A stretch of DNA of 64,000 nt from Bryoerythrophyllum caledonicum (lineage: Eukaryota; Streptophyta; Bryopsida; Pottiales; Pottiaceae): assembly GCA_963971425.1 (NCBI GenBank), contig OZ020514.1, forward strand, positions 24,726,602 through 24,790,601, in the 5' to 3' direction. The notes below the pieces were generated by a model. It saw only the letters and a program-made list of their open reading frames with translations, was not told the origin of the DNA and did no database searches. Both the position numbers and the translations under genes were made by a program. Shown piece after piece: positions 9,027 to 40,813 of the stretch (position 1 is the first letter of the stretch; every line of letters starts with the position of its first letter).

Positions 9027-9821
9027 TTAAGAGCGGAGATTTTGAAACGCTTGGATTGCGTTCCAGATACTCGCAGACTGACCACACGTCTTCTGATCAT
9101 TATAAAACATCTCCCGGCCAGAGGGATGTTCGGCCCGGTACTGCGCTAGACCACCCGGAAACTGATGAAGGTCAGAGAGATATGGCAGCAATTCCTCCAA
9201 CAATACAGAGTTGTCTCTCGCGCCAACATGTTTGTGCGACCATGAAGGAAGAAGAAGGACGTTCTTCGGCAAATTGAGCATGTGCTTAATCGGGCTGTCG
9301 TCAATGACAAGCGTATTTGCCGGAGTATACTCACGACCCAACCTATTGAAGAGATGGCTCGATAAGGTCTTCAAGAAGATGTCCTTCTTAGTGCCAGATT
9401 CCTTCATGTAGAATGTTCTGCTACCGACTCTACGCTCGGGAACCCTATCGCAACTCTCCTGACCAAAGATCCTGAGAGGGTACGAAGAACTATGCTGAAA
9501 AAGATAATTACATATCTGACGCGTTGTGGATTCCATCATCGAACTCCAGATCGTGATGGTGGCAATCTTAGACAACTTTGTAAGGAACTCAACACAACCA
9601 GGGCGCACTCGAACTAGTTTAGGGCCTACTTCGGCCGGCAGCAAAGCCGAGTGAATGGACGGGATAGAGTCCCTGGATCCTCTGGCCTGCCACGACGGCT
9701 CACACGTGCATAGAATCCCATTGAGGTCCAGCACAATGTTCAACCACGTGCCCTCGATATCTGAATGGACTCTAGGTATTTCTTCTAGATTATTGGCATC
9801 ACTTATTGATGCCTCGCCGAC
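9027..9821 (-). other. FCP1/NIF (HAD-type) phosphatase-like domain exon
   Basis: The last exon of the E1 left gene encodes a recognisable FCP1-homology fold: motif I region LNIVLDLNGILC, then VRPGCVEFLTKL, then TITIWSSMM, a lysine-bearing KKDIFLKTL, and the motif LVIDDSPIKHMLNLPKN followed by an acidic D-x4-LLEELLPYL end. Family members use DxDx(T/V) at motif I. Here the second Asp is Asn (DLNGI), so phosphatase activity is doubtful and a protein-binding role is possible. The frame is uninterrupted, and the acceptor (CAG at 9824-9822) is in phase with the donor at 9966. The stop is TAA at 9027. Confidence 0.75.
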
Positions 9822-9965
9822 CTGGTTCGCAAATGCCAGGAGAACGACCAATATTACTACAGATTCATTAACAACGACGATTCAAAAATACGTAGAACGA
9901 AAGTGATAAATGGGGGGAGGAATGATGGGGGAATGAGTGGAGTTCGAAAAGAGTTAGAAGAATAC

Positions 9966-10228
9966 CTCGAGAACTTCATCGTCCTGCAGCATTTCGTCTC
10001 GGGCACCCATCGATCCCAACGAACCCTGCATGCTGTCAAGGGGCCTGGAGTGCCCGACATCCATTTGGGGGCACGGTTCTGGGACAGGAAGAGGTGGCTC
10101 AGAATCATGATTGATCTCGTCTACGAGCACGGCTGAAACTTGGACGACCTCTTCTATGACTGGGACTGCAGTTTGGACGACCTCTTCTATGACTGGTTGA
10201 GCAATCGCGTCATCACCGAAACTTAGAT
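9966..10228 (-). other. Acidic linker exon of the E1 left gene
   Basis: An 88-codon exon (with the carried base) bounded by a strong acceptor, TTTTTCCAG, and a GT donor after CTCGAG. It encodes a Glu/Asp/Val/Pro-rich linker that contains a near-exact internal duplication of a PVIEEVVQ peptide. No domain is recognised. It joins the coiled-coil exon to the FCP1-like exon in phase. Confidence 0.6.
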
Positions 10229-10309
10229 CTGGAAAAATTCAACAACTTCACACCTATCAGCGGATGGGTACAGAGGACACGGATACAAGTCACAGTGGTT
10301 AGATGTCAA

Positions 10310-10336
10310 GCAGTTTAGCTCGAGTCGAGCTGAAGT
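10310..10336. repeat. E1 palindrome in intron 5 of the left gene
   Basis: One imperfect copy of the E1 palindrome (core 10314-10334) in the intron between exons 10439-11396 and 9966-10228. It has a single mismatch in the right arm. Confidence 0.8.
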
Positions 10337-10438
10337 GCTCGCCGTGCACTGTAATATTAACAAAAAAATACTGGAGTACAAAATTGGACATTTACAAAAT
10401 GTTTTGCCTCTATACACTCGCAACTACGTTACACTAAC

Positions 10439-11396
10439 CTGACGATGACCTGGGGACATCTGCGATAGATTCGTCCCGATCGGGCGACTTTGGAGGGGAA
10501 GAGGGGCGGGCCGACGCGGAAGGGAGAACATGAAGCAATTGAGCCCCACTGGAGACGGGGGAGGTAACCGACGGATATGGAAGCTGCAAATCGCGAGACG
10601 GACTCGCAGACCCGCCGTCCGGTGATGCGGGAGGCTGGGGGATTGCAGCAATAACTACGGGCGGTGATGTGGCGGAAGTAGGCAAATTAGCCGACATGAA
10701 TCTCTGCATCATGAGCATCATCTCGGCATGCCTCTGATCTTGGTCTCTCTTCATTTCATCGTCACGCCTCCGCTGCAGATCCCTGAGCTCCTCACCGCGC
10801 TCCGCAACTCGCTGCTCCATCAACCTCATCCGGGTGGCCTCCTCTTCGAGCTTCTTCTCAAGGGAGATTAACCTGCTGTCATCCTGAGCGTTGCTCGCGA
10901 TAGCCAAAGGAGAGCGCGTGCTCGCGCTAGCAATCTTCCTCTTCTTGGCCGCGGGACGAGCGGTTGAAGCGCCCAAGGTGGGAGCTGAATGAGGCCTGTC
11001 GGAAATCTCCAACGAATCCAACTCCGGGAAGTCGAGTCGTTGTCGCGAGGAAGCAATTGTGTCTCCTGCTTCAGATTGAGATGCACTCTGAAACTCAGGC
11101 GGAGTAGCGTCAACGAAGTCGTCCTGGGACTCATTATCCGGAGTGACGGTGCTCGAGATCGGGCACGCAACCACAGCGCTCGGCTCCGCATCTTCCTCCT
11201 CATCGCCGAGGTCAATAATGGCTTTCCCCTTCCCCTTTCCAACGGCATCTCCAAGCACGGGAAAGATCTCCGAGTTGACGTGATACGCAGAAATATCGAA
11301 ATCGGCCCGATCCAACGTCAAGCCGACCTCGAAGGCGTCGTCAAGATCCTGCTCATCGGTGTCGTGAGAAATGCAGAATGCTTCCAGGTCGAGCAT
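10439..11396 (-). other. Coiled-coil and low-complexity exon of the E1 left gene
   Basis: The exon starts at MLDLEAFCISHD, which continues the end of a methyltransferase fold, then passes into an acidic patch, a Lys/Arg-rich nuclear-localisation-like AAKKRKI and a charged heptad region of about 65 residues (LEKKLEEEATRMRLMEQRV onward) likely to form a coiled coil. A Ser/Pro-rich tail follows. The donor is TCAG followed by GTTAGT. A role in dimerisation or nuclear targeting is inference. Confidence 0.6.
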
Positions 11397-11426
11397 CTGC
11401 ACACCAATGGATTGAACAAGATTCAA

Positions 11427-11659
11427 TTTAGGTCGAGTCGAGCTAAACTCAATACAAACAATTGCTGGTACAAAAACTTGGCTATTATAACTTCAAATGA
11501 TACGAACGAAGTAAATGACATCCATAAAATCATACAAGAAAAAGCCGACACTTTAGGTCGAGTCGAGCTAAAGTTTCACCAAACAGCATAGGCATGACCT
11601 CATTGAAACTATGCATGAGTCAGAAAGGGAACAAACAGTTTAGCTCGACTCGACCTAAA
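11427..11659. repeat. Three E1 palindromes in intron 4 of the left gene
   Basis: Cores at 11427-11447, 11552-11572 and 11639-11659, all within the intron 11397-11675 that splits the methyltransferase-like fold. Each has half-site TTTAGGTCGA or TTTAGCTCGA around one central base. The C/G change in two copies falls at the same position of the half-site. Confidence 0.9.
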
Positions 11660-11675
11660 CTGCAGGGATGCTTAC

Positions 11676-13043
11676 CACACTTGCTGTCAGTAATTTCGTC
11701 CCGCCAAACAGCTGGACAACAGAATCCCCCCTCTTGCAGAACAGCTCCAGGAGCTTGACGAAGAACTCCATCCTCATCTCGTTCAAATACATGGAGTACG
11801 CCAACTCGTTGTACTTGCGCAGCTTCGTGTACAACACATGCTCTGGAGCTGCGTAGATCTTCTTTACGGCTGGGATCACCGTAAGCTCCTTCTTGAAGAG
11901 AAAGAGGAGCCAAACCGGGTCTAGAGCGTTGTTGGTCTTCGGCGCAAATCCTCCGAGGCGCTCGTTCTCGGAGGGAAGATACTTCGACTGCAGCACATCG
12001 TATGCATGGCACAACGACGGGCCCTCAGCAAACGCTGTCACTTGAAGGTGTGACTGCTCGTTGCCGCAAATGAAGAGCCAGGCTGGAAGATCGGTGAGGG
12101 GAGGCTGCCCTTTCGATGCGAACATCGTCATGAACTCGTCGAAGAAGGGCCTCTCCAACGACGACGACGACGTCCCAGAGAACCCGGGGATGTTCCGGAA
12201 GTCGATGATGCCGAGCTTCACATTGCAGCCCAGGTTGCGCCATGAATCCGAAGGCCACGTCCCGAGCGAATTCGTTGCCGCCTTGTAAGAACGGAAGTGC
12301 AGGGCTCCCACTGGTGAAACGAACCGCGACCGCACATCGATGAAGACTCTGAAGAACTCCTTCGCGTACGGAGAGAGATCTTCACATTTGCAGTTGCGAA
12401 ACTGCGTCTGCCTCGAGTTGGCGTAGTACGAATCCGGTGGACCCCAATCCAAGAGGGCACGCTTGGAGGCCTTGCTCACGTTGTAGTTCTTCTTGAACGT
12501 CCGCCAGTTTGAACGTCTGTACGCTCCAGTGCTGTTGAAGAAGGCCAGCTCCGGCCTGATCAGGTGAAGCTCCATCCGAGCGACCTCCTTCCTCTTCCTC
12601 CGATCCACCCAGTCCCGGGCTGTATAGCAATCCTCCAGCGCAGAATTTGGCAGCTTGATGACCACCTTAGGGTAGGGCAGTTTCCGAGATGGCCCTGATC
12701 GATTGAGAATGTGCTTGCACATTTTCGCGTCATCGGCTTCGGTCATGTTGCCGAGAAACTTGAAGAACTCGCGCGTCAGCACCCCATCCTTCTCAGGAAC
12801 CCAAGACTTCGCGTCCTTGAACTTTGCCAAGGGCGTCGAAGTTGAATCGACGTTGATGAGGTCGCCATGCGCCGCAGAAGAGATGACATCGGACCACAGC
12901 TCGAAGGTCTCATCTGTCGCGGTGATTATCTTCACCTCGTTCGTAATTGAAAGCTCCTTCGCCTTCCCGGCTTTCTTGAGCGCAGCCTGGCTCTTCGCAA
13001 CGTCGATCATTGCGAAGTGCTCACGAACCGCGTTGAGAAATGG
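11676..13043 (-). other. Beta-class DNA N6/N4 methyltransferase-like exon
   Basis: A 456-codon exon, open throughout, with acceptor CCCAG and donor GTAAGC. Near its end it reads EFFVKLLELFCKRGDSVVQ directly followed by LFGGTKLLTAS. This matches the 'choose partner, G-D-x-V-L-D-x-F-x-G-x-G-T' SAM-binding block that is C-terminal in beta-class bacterial and phage N6-adenine or N4-cytosine methyltransferases. About 165 residues upstream is a strand of the LPAWLFICGNEQ type, preceded by KLGIIDFRNIPG where DPPY/W would be expected. The catalytic motif is therefore diverged and may be inactive. In prophages, ParB-like domains are known fused to such methyltransferases, the same order as here. The assignment is by motif spacing only. 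Confidence 0.5.
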
Positions 13044-13120
13044 CTGGGCAGAACATAAAAGGGTCGTTTAAGTATACAATAAAGCAAGAATATTATCATG
13101 TCTAGTAGGGTCCAAACACT

Positions 13121-13230
13121 GCAAGTTAGCTCGAGTCGAGCTAACTTGCAACGCAAAAGCAGACAATGAAAGCGATTTCTATACAGATACATCGCGAACT
13201 TGCACTTTAGCTCGAGTCGAGCTAAAGTGC
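13121..13230. repeat. Two perfect E1 palindromes in intron 3 of the left gene
   Basis: Cores at 13125-13145 and 13206-13226. Both are perfect and extend beyond the core: the second is a 29-base perfect odd palindrome (13202-13230), with arm GCACTTTAGCTCGA, one central base, then its complement. Both lie between the ParB-like and methyltransferase-like exons. Confidence 0.95.
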
Positions 13231-14702
13231 ATGACCTTGGTTAAGATATATTGCCTCAAACCTCTTGTCATTGGCCATTTCAACTGCAGTTCTCCGACCT
13301 GACTTGTGAGACCCGCGAACGCCTGTGGCAGAGTGCTTTGGCATTGGTCTCCCAGCTTGGATCCACAAAGCACGGGAGCCGAGGATATTTGTTGCCCACG
13401 TTGGCTTGAACTGGACCAAATGATTCACGCGATTATAATCCGCGGAAATCTTCCTCAGCTTCTTCGGATCTTGCGTCCAGACAATGTAACATTGCCATGT
13501 TCGGAAGTGCCTTCTCATCACCTCCGGAACGTTGCCGTTAATCATCTCTTTTGAGGCAGCAACGCTGTGCTGGCCGTTGATGATGTAGAAGTCGCAGTCG
13601 CTGAGCTCCTCCACAGTCGTCGGCATACTGTCGAGCTTCGGCATGACGCAGAGAGTCTGCTTCTGCGTCTTGTCTGGCATTTGGAGGTAGTAATGCTTCA
13701 ACTCCTCCATGCCCCGAGGCTCGAACGCACGGATCGTCCACTCCGGCGGTGCATTATGCAACCTCATCACGTCAAGCTCGATCTTCATCTCTCTGTCGCC
13801 TTTGAAAAAACAGCTCTGACACTCCGTCCAGAATTTCTAATAAATCTGTTGGACGTTGTTGTAGTCGATTGTCTCTCCGTATCCGAGCGCCTTGGGGAGC
13901 TCCGAGAGTACAGAGGCCATCGAATTGGCTTGCTCCTCCTCCGATACGAGCTTCGACTTCTTTCTTGAAGAGGTCTCCGGCTTCTTGGCAGCTGACCGCT
14001 TCTTGACGGGGGAAGCAGACAGCGTGTTGCGCAGAGTGCTTCGACTTGTTCTTGCACCTTGAGTTCTAACCGGTACCGACGCCTGACTCATGTCTTGGCT
14101 ACCGGTCACGGCCCCCGAAACCGTTGAAAGTTCTATCGGCCGTCTTGCCGCAATATTCTTCGCCTTATTCTAGAGCGGCTAAGGTACTCATTCTAGAGAG
14201 AATGACGCGCAGTTTATTAGCTATAGCCTTTGCTTTCAGCGGCTGTCCGCTACTAGTCTCCCATTTCTTAAGGGAGATCTCATGCTCGACCTGAGTCACT
14301 ATTTCCTCAAATTTGGATGACCTAAGAGAATCGACCAAATCCAAGATACAGAAGGGAGATGAACTATTGTTTACTATTATAGTAAAGAAATACGGATCTA
14401 AGGACTCAGAGGTCGTCTCACACGACAACTTAACGTGATCGTTATCTTCGTGGACTACATCAGTAACTTTGGTCTTGAAGTCGATGTGCTGGGGATCGAC
14501 GATAGCACCAGCGAAGGTCTGACCAAACACTAAATGATCCGTATAGGTCGCCCACAGAAGCATCCACTTCAGTGTCATCGATGGGTCCTTGAGCTCCGAG
14601 CAGTCCAAGTGGTTGTTGTCGTCTCCATCGTCATCGTCAAGGTCGACAGGCTTTGGCTGGAAGAAGTGCTGCAGCTGCGACACCATCCTGTCCCTCTCAG
14701 AT
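13222..14702 (-). other. N-terminal domain plus ParB/DGQHR-like domain exon
   Basis: The acceptor TTTGTGCAG ends at 14703. The first part encodes MVSQLQHFF, an acidic run and a globular domain conserved in E2. Just past 14170 the frame slips by one base, continues through a Ser/Lys/Arg-rich linker, and meets a TAG at 13837. The same frame then encodes KFWTECQSCFF, FYIINGQHSVAASKEM and CYIVWTQDPKKLRKISADYNRVNH. The INGQH-x-VAAS block corresponds to the DGQHR/DGhHR signature of ParB/sulfiredoxin-fold domains. E2 has LINGQHIVEASKRL and YVVWSRDPLMLQRISKFYN at the matching place, so the block is conserved between diverged copies. Confidence 0.6.
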
Positions 14703-14776
14703 CTGCACAAACACAAAATAGAGCAAAGATATTAGATTGCTCTATTGATCATCCGATTAGGACGGCGAGGTCACAC

Positions 14777-15478
14777 ATTAGCTCGACTCAAGCTAAAGTG
14801 TACCGTTATTCAAGTATGTGAGTAATACTCTGCAACAAAATTTAGACATTAAGGACGTTCTCTTAGACGCTTACAATCAACTCATGCCTGCTTCTCGTTC
14901 AACTCTCAAAAATGTGGGAGAGCTTCAGGTCACGCTCAAATCACTCACGAACCTCACTCTTAGAGGTTCTCAAGTGGTTTAAGCGGGACTGAAGCTCTTG
15001 CACGATTTATGAGAGGTGAACGGAAAGAAGACGTGAGTTGAGTTGGGAGACTGCAATTACACCAATGAATCAATGTTGTATTCAAGTTTTAGCTTCATCT
15101 TTAGCTCGACTCGAGCTAAAGTGCTCACGCATGGAATGCATAGCTGAACAGTTCTGACACTTGCAGTATTCATTCAAACGACTTTCCTATACATTTCTAT
15201 TCAAATCATGGCTACTTCTCGTTTAACTCTCAGAACTGCGAAAGAGCTTCAGTTCACGCTTAAATCTCTCACGAACCTCACTCTTTGAGGTTTTCAAGTG
15301 GTTCAAGCCTGACTGAAGTTCTTGCACGCATGTGAGAATTGAACGAGAAGTGGACATGAGTTGGGTCGTCGGTATCATTGGATTACTATACATTTGGAAT
15401 GTTTAAAGTCCGAATAGTGTTGTGTTCGGGTTGTTGTTTATGTTCATTCTCTCACACTTTAGCTCGATTCGAGGTAAT
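14777..15478. repeat. Scattered E1 palindromes in intron 1 of the left gene
   Basis: Cores at 14777-14797 (imperfect), 15100-15120 (perfect) and 15458-15478 (decayed). All fall in the long first coding intron (14703-16212). Around 14880-15010 and 15190-15330 the intron also contains a diverged direct repeat of about 130 bp with the theme CTTCTCGTT-ACTCT-GAGCTTCAG. Confidence 0.85.
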
Positions 15479-15598
15479 GTGTGTAGGCTTTACAGAGAGG
15501 CCATGTTTTATTTTAAACCCAGTGTTTAAGAGTTGGTATTAAGATTTTATTTCGAGTAGTCTCTTTTAGCGCAACCGAAGACGTACGAAGTCGTACAT

Positions 15599-16103
15599 TT
15601 TATCTCGAGTCGAGCCATTATGTGACCTCGATAGTGTATTATCGTCCACAATTTAGCTCGAGTCGAGCTAAGTTGGGACTTTTCTGTGCACATTTGGCAC
15701 ACTTACGCTCTTGTTGCGCCAAAGTGCAACTTTGTGTTTTCTTCATTGATCAAACTTTACCTCGAGTCGAGTTAAAGTGTGGCCAAATGTTCACAGAAAA
15801 GGTCCACAGAAAAGGTCCACTTCAGCTCGACTCGAGCTAAAGTGTGGCCAAAGATGCACAGAAAAGGTCCATTTTAGCTCGACTCGAGCTAAAGTGTGGC
15901 CAAAGATGCACAGAAGAGGTCCACTTTAGCTCGACTCGAGCTAAAGTGTGGCCATATGTGCACAGAAAAGGCCCACTTTAGCTCGAGTCGAGCAAATGTG
16001 TGGATATTAGTGCACAGTGGGGGCACACTTTAGCTCGACTCGAGCTAAAGTGTGTTCAATAGTGCAAATATGGATTTCCCACATTAGCTCGACTCGAGCT
16101 AAA
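15599..16103. repeat. 52-bp-period palindrome array in intron 1 of the E1 left gene
   Basis: Palindrome cores start at 15599, 15652, 15756, 15821, 15873, 15925, 15977, 16029 and 16083. From 15821 the spacing is 52, 52, 52, 52 and 54 bp, and 15652-15756 is two periods. Arms extend outward as CAC-TTTAGC and GCTAAA-GTGTGG. Spacers share GGCCAAAGATGCACAGAAAA. It is a tandem array whose unit carries one palindrome, close to five helical turns, so the sites would face the same side of the DNA. It lies between a GTAAAA donor at 16212 and the acceptor at 14703. Confidence 0.95.
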
Positions 16104-16212
16104 GTGTGTTCAATGAATAGCGTATTTATCGCAGATTGTACAGATTAGTCATTCGTTATATGATACTGAAGGCGTAGGGTTCAGGGCTCCTGGGTGAGAG
16201 TATAGATTTTAC

Positions 16213-16270
16213 CTTTCAGCCATTGCTTATGAACCTTAATCCCAGACAAATTCTGCTGGAACTAGACTTC
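16213..16270 (-). other. First coding exon and 5' splice signals of the E1 left gene
   Basis: On the minus strand, an acceptor GTTGTTGCAG (ending at 16271) and a donor GAAAG/GTAAAA (after 16213) bracket 58 bases containing ATGGCTGAAAG. This codes MAE plus two bases, which join in phase to exon 14702. Upstream, TAAAG/GTAAGT near 16738 is a good donor for a 5' untranslated exon. These signals fix the start of the left gene and place the palindrome array in its intron. Confidence 0.65.
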
Positions 16271-16819
16271 CTGCAACAACAATTACAAACCCACACACAA
16301 AATCAATCAAAGTAGCACATGGAAACCAAAACATTGAAATCTTTCACATTGAAATCAACACTTTGAAATGGGCAAATTGAAATTCAGCACTTTGAAATAA
16401 ACACATTGAATTCAGCACATTGAAACAATGACATTGAAACCAGCACATTCAAACTAGCAGAAAGTAGCACACTTACACCAGTTCAAACCAACACATTTAA
16501 ACTAGCACAGACCACCACAAATATCCACAAACCACCACAAAACCACCACATTCAAATCTCCACATTCAAATCACCACATTCAAACCAGCACATTGAAACC
16601 AATATACACTCTCATCTACGTGCTGACACATACATCAAAAGCAATGCTACACATATATTATGTTTCAACACATCATATCAAAAGCAAAACTATACAAATA
16701 TCAAAAGAAATGCAAGACTGAATGAGTGCACTTACCTTTAGAACTGAGAAATCCGACTGGAAAAGCTGGAAGTCTTGTTACTTGATCACGTCAATCCTCC
16801 ACGCACGGCCGTTTCAGAC

Positions 16820-17062
16820 TCTACGTGCTCACAGAAACTCACAGAAACTCACACACACTCACAGAAACTCACACACGCTCATAGAAACTCACACACACTC
16901 ACAGAAATTCACACACACTCACACAAACTCACACACGCTCATAGAAACTCACACACTCACAGAAACTCACACAAACTCCCACAAACTCTCACAAACTCAC
17001 ACAAACTCACACAAACTCTCACAAACTCACACAAACTCTCACAAACTCACACAATCTCACGC
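16820..17062. repeat. CA-rich tandem repeat upstream of the E1 left gene
   Basis: About 20 imperfect copies of a roughly 10-bp CTCACACAAA / CTCACAGAAA unit. It lies just 5' of the predicted untranslated exon of the leftward gene. A CACA-rich tract occupies the equivalent place in E2 (30.18-30.55 kb). The long Thr/His/Ser frames across it are artefacts of the repeat. Confidence 0.85.
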
Positions 17063-18060
17063 AAACAGCCCTAAACTCTATCGCTGCAGTGTACACGAAG
17101 TCACACAACAACAAATCGCACGTCCTACAAACCCTATGCGCATGAAACCCTAGACTCCAGTAAATTGCACACGGAAGCCTATACGCAGCGCTACAGTGTA
17201 CACAAACATAACAATCCCTGTAGATTACGAAACTAACACAAACCAATGCATCAACTCACAAAACGCAGAAAACAACAACGCCTGGAAGTACACGGAAAAC
17301 CTGGACTGCAACAAAAAGAATAGAAAAATGGCTCGCGCCACGACTTCGTGGGGAAGTTTCTGGGCCACCTATAGCCGTGAGGGTCGAAACCCTGTGGCCG
17401 TTTGGTGGTGCCGAGATACCCTCGGGATACCCTTTGCGATATTGGGGTGTAACTCCCGGGTATTATGCCGGATGCTCCACAAATCTTTCACCTTCGTTAC
17501 TAATACCCGGACTTTTAAGAAGCCAATTTAATTTTACCAGAATAAGTTCAAGATATTACGCGCCTGTAGTATTTGTGTACTCGTAAATTTCCAACACAAT
17601 TTTTCGGAGCCACTAACACTACAATTTTGGATATTTTGGGGCAACGAACAGGTAGCAAAAGGAAAGTTATTATTTCCAATTTCTTTCGTATGATCTCAAT
17701 TAAAACTTCTAAATTGACATTTTCTCAATAATACACAAATTTAAATTGGACGAAAGTGAACGTTTATGGTATTTAGTGTTTAGTTTTCTTTCATGGTTTT
17801 AGTGGATCAGCTGGCTTTCACTTCACTCGATTTCAATTTTTGCATTACACAAGGAGTAAATTCATTACCATCGATATATATAAGTTCCTCCTACAGCAAT
17901 TATTAGGTGAAGCACAGTTAAGAGAGTTTTAAAGCTACGATTTTAAGATTCTATTACTTTGAATTCAAGTTTTGCTTTTTTATGAGTTTGATATTATTTT
18001 CTATGACAATCGAATAGACAATAAGTATGTTAAGACCACATCTTGCAATTGTATAATTAT
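17063..18060. other. Intergenic spacer of element E1
   Basis: Between the two divergent E1 genes. No coding sequence was recognised. It becomes AT-rich after about 17580. Confidence 0.45.
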
Positions 18061-18077
18061 AAAATAAATGCCAGTGG

Positions 18078-18180
18078 ACACTTTAGCTCTAATGGAGCTA
18101 AAGTGTGCGTATTAGCTTTATAGTTTCCTACATTTACTGATGGTGTACACTTTAGCTCTAATAGAGCTAAATTGTGAATT
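18078..18180. repeat. Variant palindromes, 69-bp spacing (first block)
   Basis: Cores at 18082-18102 and 18151-18171, 69 bp apart. They keep the outer TTTAGCTC...GAGCTAAA arms, but the bases next to the centre are T..G or T..A instead of G..C, so the CpGs are gone. This is the same variant as at 19.8 and 25.8 kb. Confidence 0.85.
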
Positions 18181-18189
18181 TTTTCCGTA

Positions 18190-19760
18190 CTTTTCACTTC
18201 ATTTTGCTTTTACTGTAACGGTACAAATACAGTTGTTAGAGCATCTCCCCCCTGACGGAGAATTTTCCACGCCAGCGGGAAGGTGCCCAAGTTTGAGATG
18301 AAGTGGGGGGGTCACCCTTTTCCCCCCGCACCGTCCCCGAATTGGCCACTATGAGGGAACGCCAACGCCCAGCACTAACTCTATAGTAGGCTAATTTTTT
18401 TGGAGGTTTTTATTGATTTCTTTTAATTCCCTCGTGTAATTTCATGCTTGAACACATGCTCTCGGGGAATTTTGGTGTCCCCTGTACTTTTTGTAAATTT
18501 ACTATTTAGAGGAACCGGCGCCGCCACTGCAGTGGGCCGGTACACCGGCCTAGGCCTCACGGAGTCGGCTTTACCGTGTTTATTCTTGCATTCCGGTCAC
18601 TCGGTCCCGGTGGAGATTATCTTTTTCTAGTACACTATTTGTCAACAAGTTGGCAACTAGTTTTAGCCACCATTGTCCTGAATATTATCCCTCATTCGTT
18701 CACCTACTACGATTCATTTCGTAATAGCCCTCTATCAAAACTCTTCCCTAGCACACAATTTTGATACTTGATAAATAGTATAAGCTCAAAGTCTTTAGCC
18801 TACCGGTCGCCATGCATTCATTCTTCGTCTCATCTTCAACCTCAATTTCTTATCCTCTTATCCACAACTATTCTCATTCCCATCTCTTGCATTTTCTTTA
18901 CATTATTTAATATTATCTAATGAATATTTAATGTGTAATCAAATATTTAGCCAATAACTAATGACTTTGTAATGATTTTTTAGAGGATAATTCATGTATA
19001 TTGGTATATCTATAACTTTTATGCACAATTAAAGAATATTGGAATTTTATTTATAGAATGTTGGAAGTTTTAAAAGTATATTTATGATAGTTTATTAATA
19101 TTTATATATTTAATGATTATTTAAAGAGTATTTAATGCACTGTTAATGAATAGTTAATGAATAGTGCATAAATTTCTAATGTAAGATTAATGTGTATTTG
19201 AATATTTAATGAGTATTTAATTAATATTTACTGAATATGTAATGCACATTGAATGCGTATTATGTGATGGATATCTAATGAGTATTTTACTTGTATTCCT
19301 ATATTTATTGTATGTTTAAGTTTTTTCCTTTTCCAATATTCCATTCTTTTCTCATTTTCGTTTCATTTTCCCTCCATATTTTACATTCTACTTTGTCCAA
19401 ATTTTTATATTTTCCTTTTGCTCCATACCTACGTCCGCTTATTTCCAAGCTCTTTCTTGCAAATTCTTCCTTTTCTACATGCACTCAACCCTTCTTTACT
19501 ATGATGCTCAAGATGTAATCAAATCATGATTAAGGTTCCCTACAGTAATTGTCGACAAATAAAAACTTTATGTTCTACTATTTACTAGGATTGACATTTA
19601 GTGTAGTAGTTGGCATTTAGTGTAATATAGTTTTGTCACTACACTTATTGTAAATTTTACAATTACTGTGTGCATTCCTATTTAGTTTCCACTTCTCTAG
19701 AAGCCATCTTCTGTATACTGGAGCTACATAGTGCATTTTTGCTTTCTAATCCACTCCATT
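18190..19760. other. Non-coding, AT-rich spacer
   Basis: No gene is seen. The 18.9-19.3 kb part is a degenerate run of TAATGAATATTTAATG-like words. Short frames here lack motifs. Confidence 0.45.
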
Positions 19761-20070: not shown

Positions 20071-20387
20071 AAATCTCCAATAGTAATATTAAAAAACAAA
20101 AAAATATGACGATCCCCTAGTTTTTAGTGGATATGAAGTCTAAGTATTCTTGGTACCCTAAATCAATAATATGTGACAATGTGAAAAATAGATGAATGAA
20201 TATGTAATCTTATTTTTCACTAGAAAAATAACATATTTTTTCACAATATCATTTGTTCTAATATTACTTCTATGTATTGAAAATACCACATTCCATACTG
20301 TGTCATAGCAAAAGGTTTTTTAGGTTGCTTGATGTGCCGGCAATCGAGAAGTTTCTCTTTTGGCTCGCATAACTTTTAATGAAGACG

Positions 20388-20465: not shown

Positions 20466-20469
20466 TTAT

Positions 20470-21300: not shown

Positions 21301-21324
21301 TGACATCAAAAGATATCACCTAAA

Positions 21325-30179: not shown

Positions 30180-30640
30180 CAAACTCACGTGCACATATAC
30201 ACACGTAGGGCTGACACACACACATCTGAGACTCACCTTCACACACCTAAAACTCACCTTCACACACCTTAAACTACACAAACACTCACAAAGATACGCA
30301 CACACACGCGCGCACACACTCACACACTCACACAACGTACAGAACGCACTAACACGCGCACTCACTTCTCACACGCACACAGAAAATGAGATTATACACA
30401 AACCCTAGCGAGCTGTGACTTAGAGAGAGAAAGACACACATACAACGCACACAAAATGCACACAAAACGCACATACAACACAAACAATCGCGCCCTCACA
30501 CGCGCACTCAAACGCGCACTCACTTCCACACGCGCACACAGAAAAGGAGAGTAGACAGAAACCCTAGCGTCCAGTGAGAGAGAGAGGGGGAGAGAGAGAG
30601 AGAGAGACAGAGAGTGAGAGAGAGAGACAAAGAGAGAGAG
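30180..30640. repeat. CACA-rich and GAGA microsatellites upstream of the E2 left gene
   Basis: An irregular CACACA/CTCACACG tract (30.18-30.55 kb) followed by a (GA)n run (about 30575-30640). It occupies the same promoter-side position as the CTCACACA repeat of E1. Frames called here (Val/Cys/Leu- or Ser/Leu-rich) are repeat artefacts. Confidence 0.85.
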
Positions 30641-30649
30641 AGGACGTGT

Positions 30650-31480
30650 CATGCCCTCGTTCACCTTTGAAAAAGTGACGGGATTGGTGGCTTTTCCACT
30701 TTTTCACCACCTTTGGATAGAAACCTAATTTTAAAGCAACACAACGGTTGAATGTCCAATCACTTTCATTTTGGAAATTTCACTGAAATTACTCATTCTT
30801 CACTACGCTCTTCAATGAATTAATTTTTGTTAATTTAAGTGAATTTGTGACGTTTTCATCTGTCCATTTCATTGTTGCAAGAATGATTTGTAAACTACCA
30901 ACTTTGGCATACTCTTGCATGATGAAATTGTTTACTATATTAGTTTATTTGGATAGTTCTTAAAATTTTACTTCATATAATTATATTTAGAGTTTTTAAA
31001 TTATTGTAATCGATGTAAATCATTATATTTTTCATTTTGATTGTATTGTAAATTGTTATTTTTATAACTTTTATATCGTAACTTTGTAAATAACTATTAC
31101 ATTCATTGTCAATCAAATTAGGACTCTTTGAGTGGATCTATATTATATTGGATTTATTGTTTTTTTTTTTTTTCTTGTGTCAATTTTTTAATGTAAATTG
31201 TAAGTTCGTAACTAGTTATGATTTGTAACTAGTTATGATAATTTAGTTTATAATTGGCATAGCTATCCTTGAATCAAAGATAGTCTATAATTAGAAAGTA
31301 AACAAAATGCATGAATTTGCTCAAAATAGCTGCTGAAATTATCGACAAAAAGTCTCAAAATTCTAATACTCTCTCAACATGTTAAACTACAAAAAATCAA
31401 AAACCTAATTATTTTTTTTCAATTCAATTCTATTACACTAGAGTGTTATCCATGTCCTCCGGACACAACATTTTTTGTGT
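30650..31480. other. AT-rich spacer of element E2
   Basis: No gene seen. It contains copy one (about 31246-31380) of a dispersed repeat described at 32.0 and 36.4 kb. Confidence 0.45.
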
Positions 31481-31489
31481 TGAGTCCCC

Positions 31490-31675
31490 ACCTCCCCGTC
31501 CCCTAGCCCTTTCCCTCCAATCCATCGTCCCACCCATCCCCATCCCCCGTCCCCCGTCTCTGTCCCCCGTCCCCCGTCTCTGTCCCCCGTCCCCCGTCTC
31601 TGTCCCCCGTCCCCCGTCTCTATCCCCGTGCCCGTGCCCGTCCCCATCCCCATCCCCATCCCCATTCCCGTCCTG
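31490..31675. repeat. C-rich tandem repeat
   Basis: About four copies of a 21-bp unit (CCCCCGTCTCTGT with CCCCCGTC) followed by a 6-bp CCCCAT/CCCCGT run. Very strand-asymmetric: C-rich on +, G-rich on -. The G-rich strand could form G-quadruplexes. Confidence 0.9.
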
Positions 31676-32259
31676 TCCTTTTATCCAAAACCCTTACTTT
31701 TAGGTTTTCATTTTTATCCAAAACCCTAGCTTTTAACTGTTAACTTTTAGCTTTAAGTGTTTTTCCTCGACGCATCACTTTTTCATCCAAGCTTGATGCG
31801 TTCATCCATCTGCGCGTTCATCTATTCAACGTGTTCTTCATCTTGTATTTTTTTATAGACATAGATTATTAAAATTCATGCAAAGGTATCCAAGATATGT
31901 GTATAATTTATGTAGATTGTCGAGAAAAGTTATTTTTTATTTGTTGTGATATAAAAACTACATTAAAATGGTTGAACTAATGCGTTGCAAAGCAAGCTCC
32001 AACTGCTACTTTTTAGTTAAAATTCTAATTATAATTGGAATAGCTATCCTCGAATCAAAGATATTCTATAATTAGGAAGTAAACAAAATGCATGAATTAG
32101 CTCAAAATAGCTGCGGTAATTATTGGCAAAAAGACTCAAAATTCTAATACTCTCTCAATATAATGAATATGATCATAATTTATTATATTTGATTCTTATC
32201 ATTTGAACTAGTTTAGAAATATACAATTTGTTACAATATGTAAACGTTAAAATTTTCAT

Positions 32260-35200
32260 TTTTTAGGTCTTTTCAATCTAATAGACTAAATAGGATTGAG
32301 TATTGAACTGTTTAGAAAATATCTTGTAAATGGGAACTGAAAAGCTTTGTAGATCCTAAAGTAGAGTCAATTGGAGCCAATCCTGCCCTATAGCTTTTAA
32401 TTTTGAAAGATGTCTTCAAGATAGCATCTCTTTGATTCTGATTGCAAGGATACGTCTATTAGACTGTAAATCCTTAAGTGAAGTTGAAAAAGGAAAGAAA
32501 ACACAACACTACAATAGAAATCAGAATATTTTTAGAGTGATTGTCGAATAGATGCCTGAGTTATAGAAAATTTTCATGTAGCAAGGTTATCGTAGAAAGC
32601 CATGGAATATGTTCAAGTTGAATTGAGGACTGTTGTTCATAAATAAAAAAATATATTATTAAATCAATTTGACAATGTTCTGTATTGGAGTTGGAGTCTG
32701 GCCGAGAGTCTTAAACAATGATTTTGTCTCATTGATGTTTACTTGGGATAAGAAGGTGCTTGAGAATGATGATGTAGGTTACAGTAATTGAAGTCAATTT
32801 GACACAGTTTGGATTATGGTATGGAATTTATGCATACATCCTTCATATATGATCTGAGGGTGTGGTCAATTTGACATACTGTTGAGTGGAACAGATTGGG
32901 TATCGTAAGATGGCACTAGAGATAAGAGGAACAATTGAAACTTGTCCAATTGAGCTATGAATTTGGAGTTATTATTATTGGATTGAGAGAATTATATTTA
33001 AAATTGTGAGCACAATAATTTAATAATAATAAATACGACAAGGTTGGCATAAAATAAAATGTTTTGATGAGTGGCATAGATTGGAACTGCCTTTATAGAA
33101 AGTTGAATTATGGATCTAGAAAAGAGATCATAGTGAGAGAAAAGTTATTATAATTAGTGACCGTAAGTCTATTAGATTGAGTAGAGTAGAAGGGCCCATC
33201 TAATCTACAATAAATCTAGTGAATAAAATTATATGAAATAAAGTAGATATTAGATTGATTACTACTTGAAATTTATAGAGTAAGAATGAATTTTATTCGG
33301 TCACCTATTTGAATTTTCTTAGATGAATGATAATTAAGGAGTGATTACCCTTAACAACTAAGCCTAAAAGATCAAATAGAATTTAAAGGAAGACCTTGAG
33401 TATGTATCAGAATTATTATTGTCATTGTAGTAACATAGAAAAAGCCATATTTTATGAAATTTCTATAAATTGTCCCACTAATTAAGAAGGACTCAAGGAC
33501 TAAAAAAGTGATTATGAAAGAAGAATAAAGTGATGAATTGAACTAGGTGAGTTATGATGGATTTGCAAAAGCAATTATTATAAAAGAGTAAGCGGGAGTT
33601 TGCTTGAGATAAATGATTTTCACTCACCATGCCTCATGCATCATTGCATGCCATAAATTGATAGAAGGAATTCAATCATTAGTAAGTAGTCTCAAGGATA
33701 ATTAATGAATTGCATACAGGGCATGGCTACTGTCTTATTGAATTGGTTACTATCTATTTGAACCGGCTATTAATGCCTAGGAGTTGATACTCCCTGGTTT
33801 ATTGTCAATTTGAACTACCCTTTTTCCCTTAATATTTGAGGAATGTAATAACGGAAAATCAAGAATGAATTTTAGACGAATATACAGAATTATAGCTTTG
33901 GGATTTTGTTTCGGAGAATCTTTTATGATAATAATAAAATCATCTACTTTAACACCTACACATTGTAACCATTAGTTACTTAAATACGCTAAACGAAAAG
34001 ACCATTTCCCGAACCAATGTTATAAATTAGTCTGGAGTAAGATAAGTGATCTTCAACTTTTTATACTACACAATACTTTTTTATTATAAATACCTCTCCC
34101 CAAAGGAAATAATTGCCAAATGAAGATACATTATTCCATCAGAAGTAGTAAATTATATTCAAATTTTTTGTTATTTTAGACAGTCAAATGGCTATTAATA
34201 CGACAGTATTTTGGAGAAATCATGAGAATTGAGATCATTATGATCTAGTTAAATTTGATACTGTTATTCATAATTTGAATTCCTAATATAAATCTTTAGA
34301 ATACAATTTTTTCTTAAATCCTATCTCATAAATGATTATATAATTTATTTCTTACAAAATAAACATTTGTCTTACCAATTTATTTTGAATACTTCAAATG
34401 TTAACCCCAATCTAAATTCCTGATCAATTTCACACCAAAATTGCTTCTAAACTGTTGATTCGAGTGCAATAAGTAACAAGAGAAACAAATACTTGTATTT
34501 CTAAATTTTACCGTAGGATCTTAAAAAATACTTACCAAATAATAAACTTACAAAACTTCATTGGCATTGACCGGACGGATTGAAAGATTTTAGCGTTTGA
34601 AGAAGGAAATTGGTTAAATTTCTTCCCTGCGTTGAGTGGATCAGCAAACTTTCACTTCACTTAATGTTAAACACTTGCACTATTTTTGAGAATCTAAATG
34701 CATTACCATTATGTTTAGCATGATTCTAGTTCCTTGTACACCAATACTTAAAGGTAAAGAAGGAGTGTAGCATATTCAAAAACAGTCTGCAAAGATTTGG
34801 AATTCATAAAAGGTCATTTATTCACGTTGGCAGATTTGGAATCTCAATGTCAATAGAAACTTCTATGAATAATATGAAGTTGCGTAGAGTCTATATTTTT
34901 AATTTTCAGTGGTACTAACTTACGAACCACAAACCAAGAAACATAATAAAAACACCTATACAAAGCGTTGACCAAGGAAAATCTAGTATAAAATTTTAAA
35001 ACACAAAATATAGATATTTTGTATAATAGGTAATAGCCCGAACTCAAGAAATTCCCTCGAAGAAGATTTTTTTCTTTAGGGGTTAAGTATATATTTCCTA
35101 CAAGAGCTAAAACAAGCTACAAAGTTGAATTTCATCTAATATTTTATAAAATCATTTCAGTAAAGTTTTTATATAAGTAGTATGAAATATACATTTTTAA

Positions 35201-35960
35201 AAGCATGGAATGATTCAACATCAATTGGTTGTTTTTTTAATCAAGTCTATAACAATTATGATATTTAGTAATACTGATATCATTTTAAAGTTAAACTCTA
35301 TCTTGGTATAGAAAAGAATACAATGTAAGTTCAGTGAGTTTGAAATAAATTTTTTTGTTTCAAAAATTTGCATGTGATATTATGCTTCCATAAATTTTAT
35401 ATTTGTCTAACGTTTAATTTTTTCATTAATTGATAATTTGATATCTAATTCTTTGGTGTTCTTCTATACCATTCTTATGAAGATATATTGTAGAGGCTTG
35501 GTGTAGATTCTACAACAGTTTCAACCAACATTTAAACAATAATTTAAGTTGTATTCATCATTGATTTTTGTTTAAAAATAAATGAATATTGTATTGAGTT
35601 TTCTTTATTACCTAATTTATAAAGTTGGTAAACAAAAATCTTGACATAAACTCGGTGGACATGGACTTAGTGGTGGAACAAACAATCACTTTATTCACGC
35701 CGGCCCTTTAAACCGAAGTTCTTCTTTTACTTGTATGTGACAGAAAACATTTATCATCTAAATTAAAAGTGATCAAAATTTGAGAAAAGTCTGATTTTTT
35801 TATTAATGAAACATATAATGCTTTAATGAAAATATAATACTTTTACCCTAAACCAAATTAAATTTTCTTCAATTCTTATTCGAAAACAATACTAAACCAA
35901 ATGATGTAGATTGAAACTTTTAATATTCTAAGAGTTATTTTCTTTAAATCGATTCAGATT
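32260..35960. other. AT-rich gene-free stretch
   Basis: About 3.7 kb with no recognisable gene, RNA or tandem repeat. The scattered ATGAATTGAAC, GATTGAG and similar words suggest a much-decayed retroelement, but no domain can be read. Confidence 0.4.
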
Positions 35961-35972
35961 TTACTATGCTTA

Positions 35973-36397
35973 TCATACTACTAAAATCATAATCCGCACG
36001 GTGAACCACACAGCAATAAACCACGCAGTCAGTCGTGCAGTGAACTATACGAACGGTGCAGTCAACCGGTCAGATAATTGCGCAGCCAACCACGCAATGA
36101 ATCATGTTACAATTTTTAAAATATAGTTTGTAATATAAAAACTTCATTAAAATGGTTGGAAGAATGCAACGCAAAGCACTAGCTTGAGTTTTTGGGTGAC
36201 AGTGTGAAATTTGCATTTCTGTGTTGCAATTTGTGCTTATCCAAATATATTTGTAACTCTTTATTACAAATTTTACGTTCAGAACATATTTATGTTTTAT
36301 GTAGATTGTTGTTACCATTGTTTTATATATTTTGTGATATGAAAACTACATTAAAATGGTTGAACGAATGCATTGCAAAGCAAGCGCCAATTGCTAG
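35973..36397 (+). mobile_element. Helitron-like non-autonomous element(s)
   Basis: Starts A/TCATACTACTAAAATCATAATC and has two Helitron-type 3' ends, CTAG at 36179-36182 and CTAG/T at 36394-36397. Each follows a short stem of GTTGCAAAGCAAGC type and lacks terminal inverted repeats or target duplication. This fits Helitron rules (5' TC, 3' hairpin then CTRR, insertion between A and T). Two tandem or nested copies are likely. A short relative is at 52377-52531. Confidence 0.6.
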
Positions 36398-36639
36398 TTT
36401 TTAGTTAAAATTCTAATTCTAATTGGAATAGCTATCCTCGAATCAAGGATAGTCTAGAAAGTATAAAAAATACATGAATTAGCTCAAAAGACTTCTGTAA
36501 TTGTCGGCAAAACTCTCAAAATTCTAATACTTTCTCAATATATTGAATATGATAATAATTTAATATATTTGATTCTTATCATTTGAACTAGTTTACAAAT
36601 ATACTATTTGTTACAATATTTAAATGTTTTTTTTTTAAA

Positions 36640-37030
36640 ATCAATTTTTTTGAAGACTTTTTAGCAGAGTTTTGTTAGTTTTTATTACTTTTTTACATAT
36701 AAACCAAATATAACTTTCAGTTTTTCATTCATTAGAAAATCCGATTTTGTCAAAACGAATATCATTTTGTTTTATTCAGGTTTGTCGCATAACTAAATTG
36801 AAGTGACTCGGAATCCTGAAAAGGTCACCTGAAAAGTTGAGACAAAAGTACATTATTTTCCCGCCCAAAAATGGTGCCGTTGGAAAAAGTCTTTTCCACC
36901 CACCTCCATTTTTTGAGCACCAGAGCTCATCTCGACATTCATACTCCCCCCTGGAATTTCTCATTTCGAACTCTTTCCTCTCTATACCTCGCCTCCGCTT
37001 CCACTTCTGTGTTTCAGTTCTTGCCTCTGC
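36640..37030. promoter_or_regulatory. Likely promoter and 5' untranslated exon of the E2 right gene
   Basis: A CT-rich segment (36.88-37.03 kb) ends at CTCTGCA/GTAAGA, a plausible donor whose partner is the acceptor CTTGAAG directly before the ATG at 38298. It parallels the untranslated exon and donor of E1 at 21775. No TATA box can be called with confidence. Confidence 0.35.
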
Positions 37031-37363
37031 AGTAAGATACTGAATTAAGGTTTATATTGTTCTAGGTCTTTTTTGGGGACACGAATGTCTTGGATAGGTT
37101 TTTGGGGAAGGAGGGTAACTGTATTTCTTATATTGTTGTATTTCTTGCACGTTGGTTGAAGTCATTTTCATTTTCTTTTTGCTTGTGTCACACCGGTCAT
37201 TTCAATGTTTTTTCGTCTGCTCTATGCGCAATAGTAAAGGTCGACTTCCCATCGCACGTTATTAAGTGTTGTTGACCATTGAGCAGTGCAACGGTCCTTG
37301 TTCGCACTTAAACTTAATCTCTATCTATAACACTCCGCATATAAAGGAATCACTGTAGCACTG

Positions 37364-38190
37364 TTATCCTTGTGTCGAGGATAACCTAAACGGATGTAAT
37401 CAGATGAGATGAATAAATAAATAACCAACAATGACTTATCCTCGACTCGATGATAAAACAAAGGAATCATAGTGCTCATGAATTTTAAGTGTAAAGTATT
37501 GTACGAATACGGCGATAATCTCTTTAAATTATAGTTATCCTCGAGTAGAAGATAATGGATGAAAACTTGTTGAATTTCAATGATAATATAATGAGTATAT
37601 TGCATAAGATCATTGGTTGGATGTGGGTTTGATGTATTGTCAGTCTTCGTCCATTATTGATTGTATCCCACCAGGGTGATATCCTCGAGTCGAGAATATC
37701 CGATATCTGTGGAAAGGTACTAAATATTTTGATATTAAAAATTATGATAGTTATTCTTGAATCGAGGATAACTGACTTTGAGTTTGATGTCATCTAAGGC
37801 GTATGTTGAATGTTAATTGTCAAATATCAGATTTATATTTTTTGGTAAATTGCCAATATCATTTATGCTCTCAAATCTTCAAGAAATGTTTTGGAGTTCT
37901 ATCCTCGGTTCGAGGATATCTCTCTGAGGCTTTATGCAATTTATTTTTTAAATCATAACTCGATTAGTTCATGGCAAATTTTAATTTAAGGAGATAATTT
38001 TCTAACTCTGAACTTGATTGATTAATCTTTGAATGTTTTCTCTTTGTTCGGAGTGATGTGTATATGTGGAGTGTTTCTTCGGGTTCAAATCATTAGTGAT
38101 TTGTTAAACCTAACTGTGGATTTAATGAATGATCTCCTAATTCAATATTTAAATTTTTTACATCTGTAATTATCCTCGTATCGAGAATAA
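37364..38190. repeat. Seven E2 palindromes in the first intron of the E2 right gene
   Basis: Cores start at 37364, 37436, 37535, 37679, 37751, 37899 and 38170. Spacings of 72, 99, 144, 72 and 148 bp suggest an older 72-bp tandem unit. Half-site TTATCCTCGA. Several are decayed by one or two substitutions. Short frames here that encode YPRVEDK-like peptides are simply the palindrome read through. Confidence 0.9.
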
Positions 38191-38297
38191 GCGTATCTTC
38201 CCTGTTTCATTCTCCTCTCATTAAAGCTGTTCTTTACAATTATGATGATATAACTGAATGACTCACCCTCTGTCTATTTCATTGTGATATCTTGAAG

Positions 38298-40813
38298 ATG
38301 GAAGATCACTCATACGATGGTGTTGTCCGAGTTCCACCTACCTTGCCTCCAGGTGTTGCTGCATGTGATGGAATTCCTCGCGCGTCGTGGTTCTCAAAGC
38401 GCGTGATCCTTAGAAACACATCTGGGGTTGATGTTGGAATTGGACTTTGCCAGAGTGTTGATTCTGGATTTGTTCCACTAACTGGTGGTCGGCCACTCGG
38501 AGATGATCATGTTGCGATTCTAATCGCTGAATGTTTAGACGAGACTAAAATTCCATTGAACTGGATGTTTGCCCTTCGAGCGTGGCCAACTCGACAGGTC
38601 TTTCTTTGCAACGTCAGCTTGTACGACTAAGAGCAAACTCGCATTTACAATGCTGCTCTAAAAGTATTTCGTCGTGGTCCTAGAGTAGGCGTTCGACAGT
38701 ACGAAACCACTCGTTAGAGAGTTGAGGGTCCTTCCCCACGAAAGAAGGAAGTACTTCTTACTTCACAATCGATCAACTCAGTTGCAAGCACCGTCTGTTG
38801 TCCAAGAAATTGTACTCAACGATTTCCATGGTGTTCAATTTCTGTGCTTCGCTCCCAAGTTTACCGTGACATTGGAGGTGTTTTCTTTCAGAAACATGTC
38901 TGGCTTGATGTACACAGGCAGATCCACATGGATTCCAATGGCAACAATGTGGTGACGCTTGATGGAATTGATGTATGCCAAAATGCATGGTGTACTATCA
39001 TGGGGGTTAGCCAAGCCACATTCTACCGATACAAATGAGAGGCAAAGGACGGGATGCAGGCGGGGGCACACGGCAATACTGGTTCAAAGAAACCCCGGAC
39101 TCATACTCTACAGGAAATTGCTACTCTGCATGATATACTTGATGATGCTGCTGATCACAGTCCTAATAAGATGTGGGCACTAGGGAGAAGGTGCAAAATG
39201 TGGGAAGTCAAGCTGCAGTTACATCAGGCCTCTCAACAGACTCATCAAAATTTATATTATGGAAACCGGAAGAACTCGGAAGAAAAACCGAATGAGGTTG
39301 TGTGCGTCATCCATGATAAAATGGATCATAGCAAAACCGCATCTCCTCATTTTTCTCACAAGAATAAAGCGACAAAGTCCTTCATGAAATTGCATGTGGC
39401 CGTAACTGGAATGATTGCGCATGGATATGGGGATGTTCGTTATGCCCATTATAGTCTTGACATCTTCCCCACCGACTCGAACCACATTGTTGGATTTATT
39501 GCGAAGTTACTTCGGGACTTAGAGAGTCCACCGGCGTATTCATCTCGTGAATTACTTACGGGAGGAAGAGCTTCTCCTCTCTCTCAGGCTGTGTTTGCGG
39601 ATGCTAACGTGTGTCTTGGATTCCTTGCTGCTCCACCAATTGAGCCTGTTCCTGCGAAACAGTTACCACCAATTCTCCAAATGCAGTTGGATAATGCCAC
39701 AGGGGACAATAAAAATAGATTTGTGTTTGCTTTCTTTTCCCTCCTCGTTCATATGGGTATTTTCCGTGAAGTGTATGTCAACTTCTTACTTGTTGGTCAT
39801 ACTCACGAGGATATTGATGCAATGTTTGGGAGATGGAGTTCCAAACTCAAGTCAAATAGCTATCCAACGATTCCACTGTTGATGAAATCATTCATGGATG
39901 CTGAGAAAATGCCAGTTATTCCACACCTCATTGAAGAGGTGCCCAATTTCAAGGGCTTTTTAGAGGGATATTTGTGCATTGGCAAAGAGGCCCTTACGGG
40001 TCACACAAAGGGCCAACAATTCAAGTTCTACAAGGGCTCAGATAGATTGCCAAAGATGCAGTACAAAATTCTTTGTACAGATAGGGATTGGTTGTCCGAG
40101 GAGGATGGAGGAATCTAGCTGTGGAAAGTGACGGCAGATGGTATGCCAATTTTGCCTCGTGGTCAGCCGCTTCCTCTCATTCCGCGACGTCATGAGAATT
40201 ATGATGAGGTTTTGAAGGGTATCTCTGGGTTTCTAAGTCTCATACGTCTCCCTCGACGACCCATCAATCTCTGCATACTCCTCCCTCAACGACCCATCAA
40301 TCTCATATTCATCCACCATAGATGGAGCATATCTAGATAGAGGCCAGAATCCCTCTCGTAGAAGAGGTGATTCTTCCAAAGGCCCCTTGAGGGCAGCCTT
40401 AACACCTCTCCAATAATACATAATATGCTCGTTCTTCCTCCTATATTCACCCGAGAGATGTGTACGAGGGCTATATACTTGCGGTGCGTTCTGCTGATGG
40501 GGATTTGCGCCCATTTTGGATTGCCTTGGCGTTGACTAATCCACATCCGGATCGAGAACATTCTCATGAGATTAAAGTGCAATACTTCAAACCTGCATCC
40601 CAACGTCATGTGGACTTGGAAACGTACCAAGGATGGGATTCTAATCATGGGAATAATTGGATTGAAGAGACTAAATCTGAACCAATCTGGGTGTATACAG
40701 ATTGTATTTTAACGGCTTGGAAGCCTAGGTTGCGTGGAAACACAAGCTCCTCTAGGTTAAGAATTCCAAAATCACAAGTGGACATAATCGAGGCATCTTT
40801 AGCTGAATTATAG
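38298..40813 (+). pseudogene. E2 right gene: decayed DUF7869-like transposase-like protein
   Basis: Homologous to the E1 right gene along its whole length (SPHFSHKNK, QLDNATGDNKNRFVFAFFSLLV, LVGHTHEDIDAMFGRWS, then RPFWIALALTNPHPD, ILTAWKPR). From 38298 to about 40235 it keeps a single frame broken only by TAA 38628-38630, TAG 38715-38717, TGA 39036-39038 and TAG 40116-40118. An in-frame deletion of roughly 80 residues after DHSPNKMW removes the CxxC zinc-binding segment present in E1. A micro-inversion occupies about 40237-40450. The frame then resumes near 40452 and ends at 40811-40813. It is certainly non-functional as it stands. Confidence 0.75.
40237..40450 (-). other. Micro-inversion inside the E2 right gene
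   Basis: Read on the minus strand this block encodes YYWRGVKAALKGPLEES, then LLREGFWPLSRYAPSMVDEYEI. This corresponds to YYWRDVRDALILPMDT, then LEDGFWPTTRIVHAIEDEF on the plus strand of E1. Sequence on both sides matches E1 in the plus orientation, so about 210 bp has flipped in place. The inverted block also holds a 36-bp tandem duplication encoding EIDGS-R-E-Y. Confidence 0.85.

Follow-up and report, generated by a model that had tools for sequence, protein, structure and literature searches.

VANDAL transposons carry a Mutator-type transposase together with a VANC protein, and by analogy they are the closest working parallel to the elements described here. In these transposons, tandem repeats of short family-specific motifs occupy intron sequence of VANC21 and VANB21 as well as the region upstream of VANA21; these motifs are 9 bases long and arrayed in one orientation, as described in the available part of PMC5735166. 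VANC21 binds the motifs, whose subtypes differ by subfamily, and the VANC protein removes silencing from its own element family in Arabidopsis (available parts of PMC5735166 and PMC10398659). We analyzed a stretch of 64,000 nucleotides from the moss Bryoerythrophyllum caledonicum (contig OZ020514.1, positions 24,726,602 to 24,790,601, hereafter the window), which contains two related elements, E1 and E2, each with a leftward gene, a spacer, a rightward DUF7869 gene and a set of palindromes. In our reading, the element is a large transposon of the DUF7869 kind whose sites are specific to a lineage and probably serve self-recognition.

As in the available descriptions of VANDAL, the motif clusters are borne by the element, are specific for a family or lineage, and occupy introns and non-coding stretches upstream of genes. 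The sites differ in being 21–27-bp palindromes with a shared core, and the function proposed for them is drawn by analogy. Neither the transposase nor the second protein is of a VANDAL family and the sites are palindromic, so assignment of the element to VANDAL itself was rejected. In the scanned open reading frames (ORFs), Pfam identified DUF7869 and NIF, and no domain of the Mutator or VANC type. Ginger1 and Ginger2, as far as their available descriptions extend, share a 4-bp target site duplication (TSD) and a cut-and-paste layout with terminal inverted repeats (TIRs), but their termini are TGTNR, in contrast to AACACC...GGTGTT here, and on the basis of these termini Ginger was also rejected. 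In addition, Ginger1 is about 2.6–7 kb long compared to 18.9 kb here, and the Ginger transposase is Gypsy-integrase-like with an H2C2 finger, whereas Pfam gave only DUF7869 for the present one. The ParB-parS system also has clusters of palindromic sites, and an NGQHS motif in the leftward gene resembles the ParB/DGQHR signature. However, the present case involves a eukaryotic transposon with lineage-specific intron sites and no ParB family match in the scanned proteins.

Element ends and lineage-specific palindromes

The borders of E1 were determined by comparing the window with eight stretches of the same genome (regions A–H) located around clusters of exact sites. Homology to other copies starts at 7617 and stops at 26488, and two copies, C and E, are 97–98% identical to E1 over its whole length. 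Based on these end-to-end copies and on TIRs and a TSD that were read directly, E1 is a complete TIR DNA transposon of 18,872 bp (7617..26488); the original prediction, which placed it at about 9–26 kb, had cut off both ends. The left TIR (AACACCATATTCGTTATAATGGGAGATTT, 29 bp, 7617..7645, plus strand) matches the right TIR (26460..26488, minus strand) at 28 of 29 positions, with one mismatch. The sequence AACACCATATTCGTTATA(A/T)TGGGAGATTT is present in inverted orientation at both element ends, and the same 28/29 bp identity was found in copies C and E. The left TSD of E1 (ATAG, 4 bp, 7613..7616, plus strand) is repeated at 26489–26492. Among the three copies in which both ends were seen, E1 (ATAG/ATAG) and copy E (CATC/CATC) have perfect duplications, and in copy C the CTCT duplication includes an additional base on the left.

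E2 (27240..41699) is a left-truncated relative of E1. It has kept its right TIR (AACACCATATTCATTA on the minus strand, 41684..41699, 0 mismatches), and no left TIR was detected at ≤3 mismatches near its left border. Its leftward gene is a remnant (27240..29298, minus strand) consisting of a part with an NGQHI motif and an N-terminal part, and its DUF7869 transposase gene (38298..40813, plus strand) is broken by stops and an internal deletion. The common order of leftward gene, spacer and rightward DUF7869 gene was seen in both elements, and layout, homology and ends support the earlier proposal that they are related two-gene mobile elements. Because of the shared ends and the 4-bp TSD they are copies of one family of large TIR DNA transposons with two divergent genes, in which E1 and E2 belong to separate lineages.

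The palindromes were found where they had been predicted, far above chance, with a shared centre and with versions that differ on both arms. At ≤3 mismatches, the E1 palindrome was matched 30 times in the window and the E2 palindrome 10 times, compared to a shuffle mean of 0 for each. An unbiased dyad scan of the window (13-bp arms, ≥11 paired, five mononucleotide shuffles as control) gave 42 matches, of which 26 were of E1 type and 1 of E2 type, 8 fell within a single AT run and 7 were unrelated, versus 1–4 in the shuffles. The spacing between half-sites was exactly 5 bp in all E1 and E2 sites with 0–1 half-site mismatches. Core palindromes of both elements have the CGASTCG centre in common; the outer five bases are TTTAG in E1 versus TTATC in E2, differing on both arms together, and the outer-base variants TTTATC, TTTACC and GTTAG were also observed. 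Within each element the same version lies beside both genes, E1-type in E1 and E2-type in E2.

E1 contains 26 core sites (CTCGANTCGAG, ≤1 mismatch), which are located in leftward-gene introns (10314, 11427, 11552, 11639, 13125 and 13206; range 10314..13226), upstream of the leftward gene (12 sites, 14777..16103, partly in a 52-bp tandem array) and upstream of the transposase gene (8 sites, 22047..22549, partly in a 47-bp tandem array). The transposase-side array includes a larger inverted repeat (window 22040–22208, ~76-bp stem in the fold), in which some units are inverted relative to others. None of the 26 core sites overlapped coding sequence (p about 1e-6 if sites were uniformly placed, with ~7.65 of 18.87 kb taken as coding and exon borders of the E1 genes drawn by eye from splice-like signals). 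All lie in introns and leaders, at least 2.7 kb from the left end, and the last one is 3.9 kb short of the right end. Since CGASTCG-core sites thus stay ≥2.7 kb from either end, the comparison with transposases and their subterminal repeats that had been drawn for this locus fits poorly, and only core-less relatives are found near the ends. These relatives (TTTAGCTC-taRtg-GAGCTAAA type), which have the same half-sites and 5-bp spacing and another centre, sit in the spacer and toward the element ends (8256, 8974, 18082, 18151, 19777, 19846, 25824, 25896 and 26154; range 8256..26174). The E2 palindromes are located beside or inside the leftward gene (27878, 29344, 29493, 29613 and 29696, with a weaker one at 27778; range 27878..29716) and upstream of the transposase gene (37364, 37436, 37535, 37679, 37751, 37899 and 38170; range 37364..38190).

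A search of the host genome (437.36 Mb in 894 contigs, including contig C1 of 65.18 Mb) recovered both palindrome types and both genes in many copies. Exact sites numbered 3,562 for the E1 type and 356 for the E2 type, and reversed controls gave 0 for each. Among the listed places on C1, 57 of 60 E1-type and 0 of 50 E2-type sites fell in verified E1-lineage stretches; because these stretches were chosen from the same site list, the informative outcome is that every one of them turned out to be an element. One of the other three listed E1-type positions sits just past the end of an examined stretch. The expectation that the palindrome version follows leftward-gene lineage held for E2-type sites on the first 23.71 Mb of C1, where 12 of 15 E2-lineage leftward genes had an exact E2-type site within 12 kb, compared to 1 of 14 E1-lineage genes, which adjoins an E2-lineage copy, and 3.2% of random positions. 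The listed E1-type places reach 13.79 Mb on C1, a span that holds one E2-lineage match.

Pairing of the two genes was examined with the exon carrying the ParB-like motif as leftward-gene query (best 150 of 1,730 candidates for E1 and best 150 of 1,507 for E2) and with the E1 transposase piece as the other query (best 150 of 3,212 candidates). At least 72 of the 150 best leftward matches had a divergent transposase match no more than 30 kb away (median distance 10.1 kb; 75 when orientation is ignored), whereas about 3 of 150 would be expected by chance. The two genes therefore travel together at least often; in each list, 78 of 150 had no divergent partner in the other best-150 list. Transposase candidates also outnumber leftward-gene candidates and, given these unpaired matches, copies or families carrying the transposase alone may exist. 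C1 contained 55 of the best 150 E1-lineage leftward matches, 74 (counted by hand) of the best 150 E2-lineage leftward matches and 23 of the best 150 transposase matches; this contig may represent a sex chromosome or a region of low recombination.

Candidate functions of the palindromes

We propose, with a probability of roughly one half, that a protein encoded by the element docks on the palindromes and thereby regulates the element's copies or lifts their silencing. Each lineage carries its own palindrome version in non-coding parts of both genes, and a probably dimeric protein of the element, most likely the second protein (the product of the leftward gene) and otherwise the transposase, would dock on them. 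By binding the site clusters in introns and leaders, this protein would control its own genes and most likely preserve or re-establish their expression in the face of host silencing, in the way that VANC acts for VANDAL. The shared CGASTCG centre would serve as a common contact, and the outer bases as a lineage-specific contact that changes with the binding protein. This proposal is supported by the sites being element-borne, non-coding and constrained, by their fixed 5-bp spacing, by the tracking of lineage by palindrome version, and by the VANC precedent.

Constraint was assessed by aligning copies other than C and E to the window sites. Ten core sites outside the arrays showed 94.9% identity (897/945) versus 82.2% (5180/6300) in their flanks and thus diverge ~3.5 times slower; five core-less sites showed 91.3% identity versus 88.2% in the flanks. 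Judged from these alignments, the core sites are constrained. Several points weigh against docking, however. Neither protein shows a recognized DNA-binding part, and the CpG observed/expected ratio along E1 did not clearly point to protection around the arrays. VANC motifs form one-orientation arrays and are not called palindromes in the available part of PMC5735166. The constraint could also come from gene conversion among sites, and the core-less sites near the ends could serve transposition instead. Finally, arm positions 11, 14 and 15 appear to stay paired while changing, which a plain binding site would not need. Of 150 distinct sites, 95, 76 and 77 had a pair at these positions versus 47, 56 and 39 expected for independent arms, with several pair types; the 150 instances are distinct sequences, counted without allowing for kinship, and the excess may largely reflect array founders. 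The excess suggests that the dyad symmetry is maintained outside the conserved half-site as well, and a hairpin role or symmetrizing template switches may therefore be involved.

A hairpin role, in which RNA or DNA stem-loops formed by the palindromes in introns and leaders would affect, for example, splicing, RNA stability or small-RNA production, appears rather unlikely. It agrees with the pairing excess, with the location of all sites in probably transcribed non-coding parts, and with predicted folding: single E1 sites have folding energies of about −17 to −22 kcal/mol, and the two arrays reach −163.7 versus −82.8 and −227.6 versus −80.3 for mononucleotide shuffles. However, arm positions 1–10 are nearly fixed and pair near independence (excess of 0 to 11 of 150 distinct sites), so it is the sequence that is conserved and not the fold alone. 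Relative to the window, the ten non-array sites showed a single pair-keeping double change, along with 23 pair-breaking, 36 pair-restoring and 9 other differences, and an Rfam scan of the element stretch found no family. The prevalence of pair-restoring over pair-breaking differences would fit with mutational upkeep, that is, template switching and gene conversion among repeats that keep the palindromes perfect with no selection, as would the covarying pairs outside the half-site, the tandem arrays and the inverted units in the transposase-side array. We consider this explanation improbable: single intron sites are conserved in sequence, and not just symmetric, across copies whose flanks are 75–90% identical, and the absence of sites from coding parts would need another cause, though purifying selection on coding sequence would suffice.

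Transposon proteins that bind subterminal repeats, such as Spm TnpA, are well known, and the DUF7869 transposase might likewise bind the palindromes, whose clusters would build or regulate a transpososome. The core-less half-sites with the same 5-bp spacing toward the right (25824, 25896 and 26154) and left (8256 and 8974) ends are consistent with such a role. We nevertheless have only limited belief in it for the palindromes as a whole, as the core sites lie far from the ends, within introns and leaders, and constraint on the core-less sites is weaker. It is very unlikely that a host transcription factor binds the palindromes and drives the element genes. Placement in leaders and introns of both genes would suit such a factor, but exact sites are nearly confined to elements in the listed stretch and the versions differ between element lineages within one host.

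The two encoded proteins

The E1 transposase gene (22709..25524, plus strand) has an in-frame TAA at 24002–24004 and a frameshift near 24,620, and both transposase genes of the window are interrupted by stops or frameshifts. Pfam matched PF25273 (DUF7869) with E-values of 8.5e-39 in E1 and 1.1e-45 in E2. At least 139 homologous proteins were detected, with identity up to 86% (the 7,996 candidates with most shared words were scored and 120 listed), and named relatives of both genes among the matches listed come from Ceratodon purpureus and Physcomitrium patens. Across 37 aligned proteins, D420, D542 and D584 were invariant and D417 and D582 nearly so, and a CxxC pair was present upstream of the first D. 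In an AlphaFold model (predicted local distance difference test score, pLDDT, 74.7; predicted template modeling score, pTM, 0.59), the conserved acids are located in the first strand, a later strand and then the next helix, as in DDD/E transposases. Because a structural search of PDB with the transposase core gave no match, assignment of the DUF7869 protein to DDE-like (DDD/E RNase H-like) transposases is likely, short of proof. No paper naming DUF7869 was found in the literature searched. Genome-wide, there were 3,607 first-look candidates for this domain, the best 150 of which were scored and were all over the cut-off. A distant DUF7869 lineage (L021–L050), 22–25% identical to P0001, has many copies with intact open frames of ~1,074–1,087 aa, which suggests recent activity.

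The leftward ORFs of E1, including the NIF part at 9027–9881, are best read as one multi-exon gene (9027..14686, minus strand) with homology to Ceratodon proteins, since single Ceratodon proteins cover the searched region: 15 homologues of 1,291–1,587 aa each span it. Overall, 18 homologues were found, including one P. patens protein without a NIF domain, and a precomputed NIF domain was present in 9 of the 15 Ceratodon proteins. On the minus strand, the gene comprises a part that is ParB-like at the motif level (13240–14686), a part without a known fold (11683–13050), a linker (10443–11397) and an FCP1/NIF part (exons within 9027–10216). PF03031 (NIF) matched 9027–9881 over the cut-off (E-value 1.3e-17). 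Active FCP1-type enzymes carry DxDx(T/V); this catalytic motif was absent from the NIF part in both the window and Ceratodon P0124, which have DLNGIL at the catalytic place. The NIF part may therefore not be an active phosphatase and is a possible pseudophosphatase.

Neither name that the original prediction gave to this gene found a family match. The ParB-like label comes from the NGQHS motif, as scans of Pfam, PHROGs and NCBIfam gave no ParB match for the scanned proteins and a profile search of PDB with the ParB-motif part returned one weak unrelated match. For the methyltransferase-like label, the same libraries gave no match in the scanned leftward ORFs, and the model of the candidate exon was unusable (pLDDT 41.6). 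Among the Ceratodon homologues (P0121–P0135), 11 of 15 had U or V chromosome locus tags, and these genes may accumulate on the sex chromosomes of Ceratodon.

Surroundings and significance

A 19–23-bp C-rich tandem repeat (AGACGTCCGCGCCCCCC) is present at 4064–4220, left of E1, and at 26711–26949, at the left border of E2. DUF659 hAT-like transposase genes flank both sides (4484–7087 and 62462–63298), and element copy D adjoins sequence matching 61561–62652. Pieces of a TEDC1 (tubulin epsilon/delta complex) gene were found at 52710–54508 on the plus strand, which fits a plant with flagellate sperm.

Recognition of an element's own copies by a private motif, through a protein that the element encodes, is known from few plant transposons. 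It is possible, as a tentative extension of the docking proposal, that the present family is a second, independently evolved and sequence-specific self-recognition (anti-silencing) system of plant transposons. Each lineage of a bryophyte DNA transposon superfamily based on DUF7869 would then encode a long ParB-motif/FCP1 protein along with a private modular palindrome to match, whose CGASTCG core would be fixed and whose exchangeable outer half-site would change with the protein. If this is true, the two lineages, with their shared core and exchangeable outer bases, would represent a natural swap experiment on how a protein and its site change together, and a biological role would be found for DUF7869, which is abundant in this genome (at least 150 of 3,607 candidates) and in named moss proteins.

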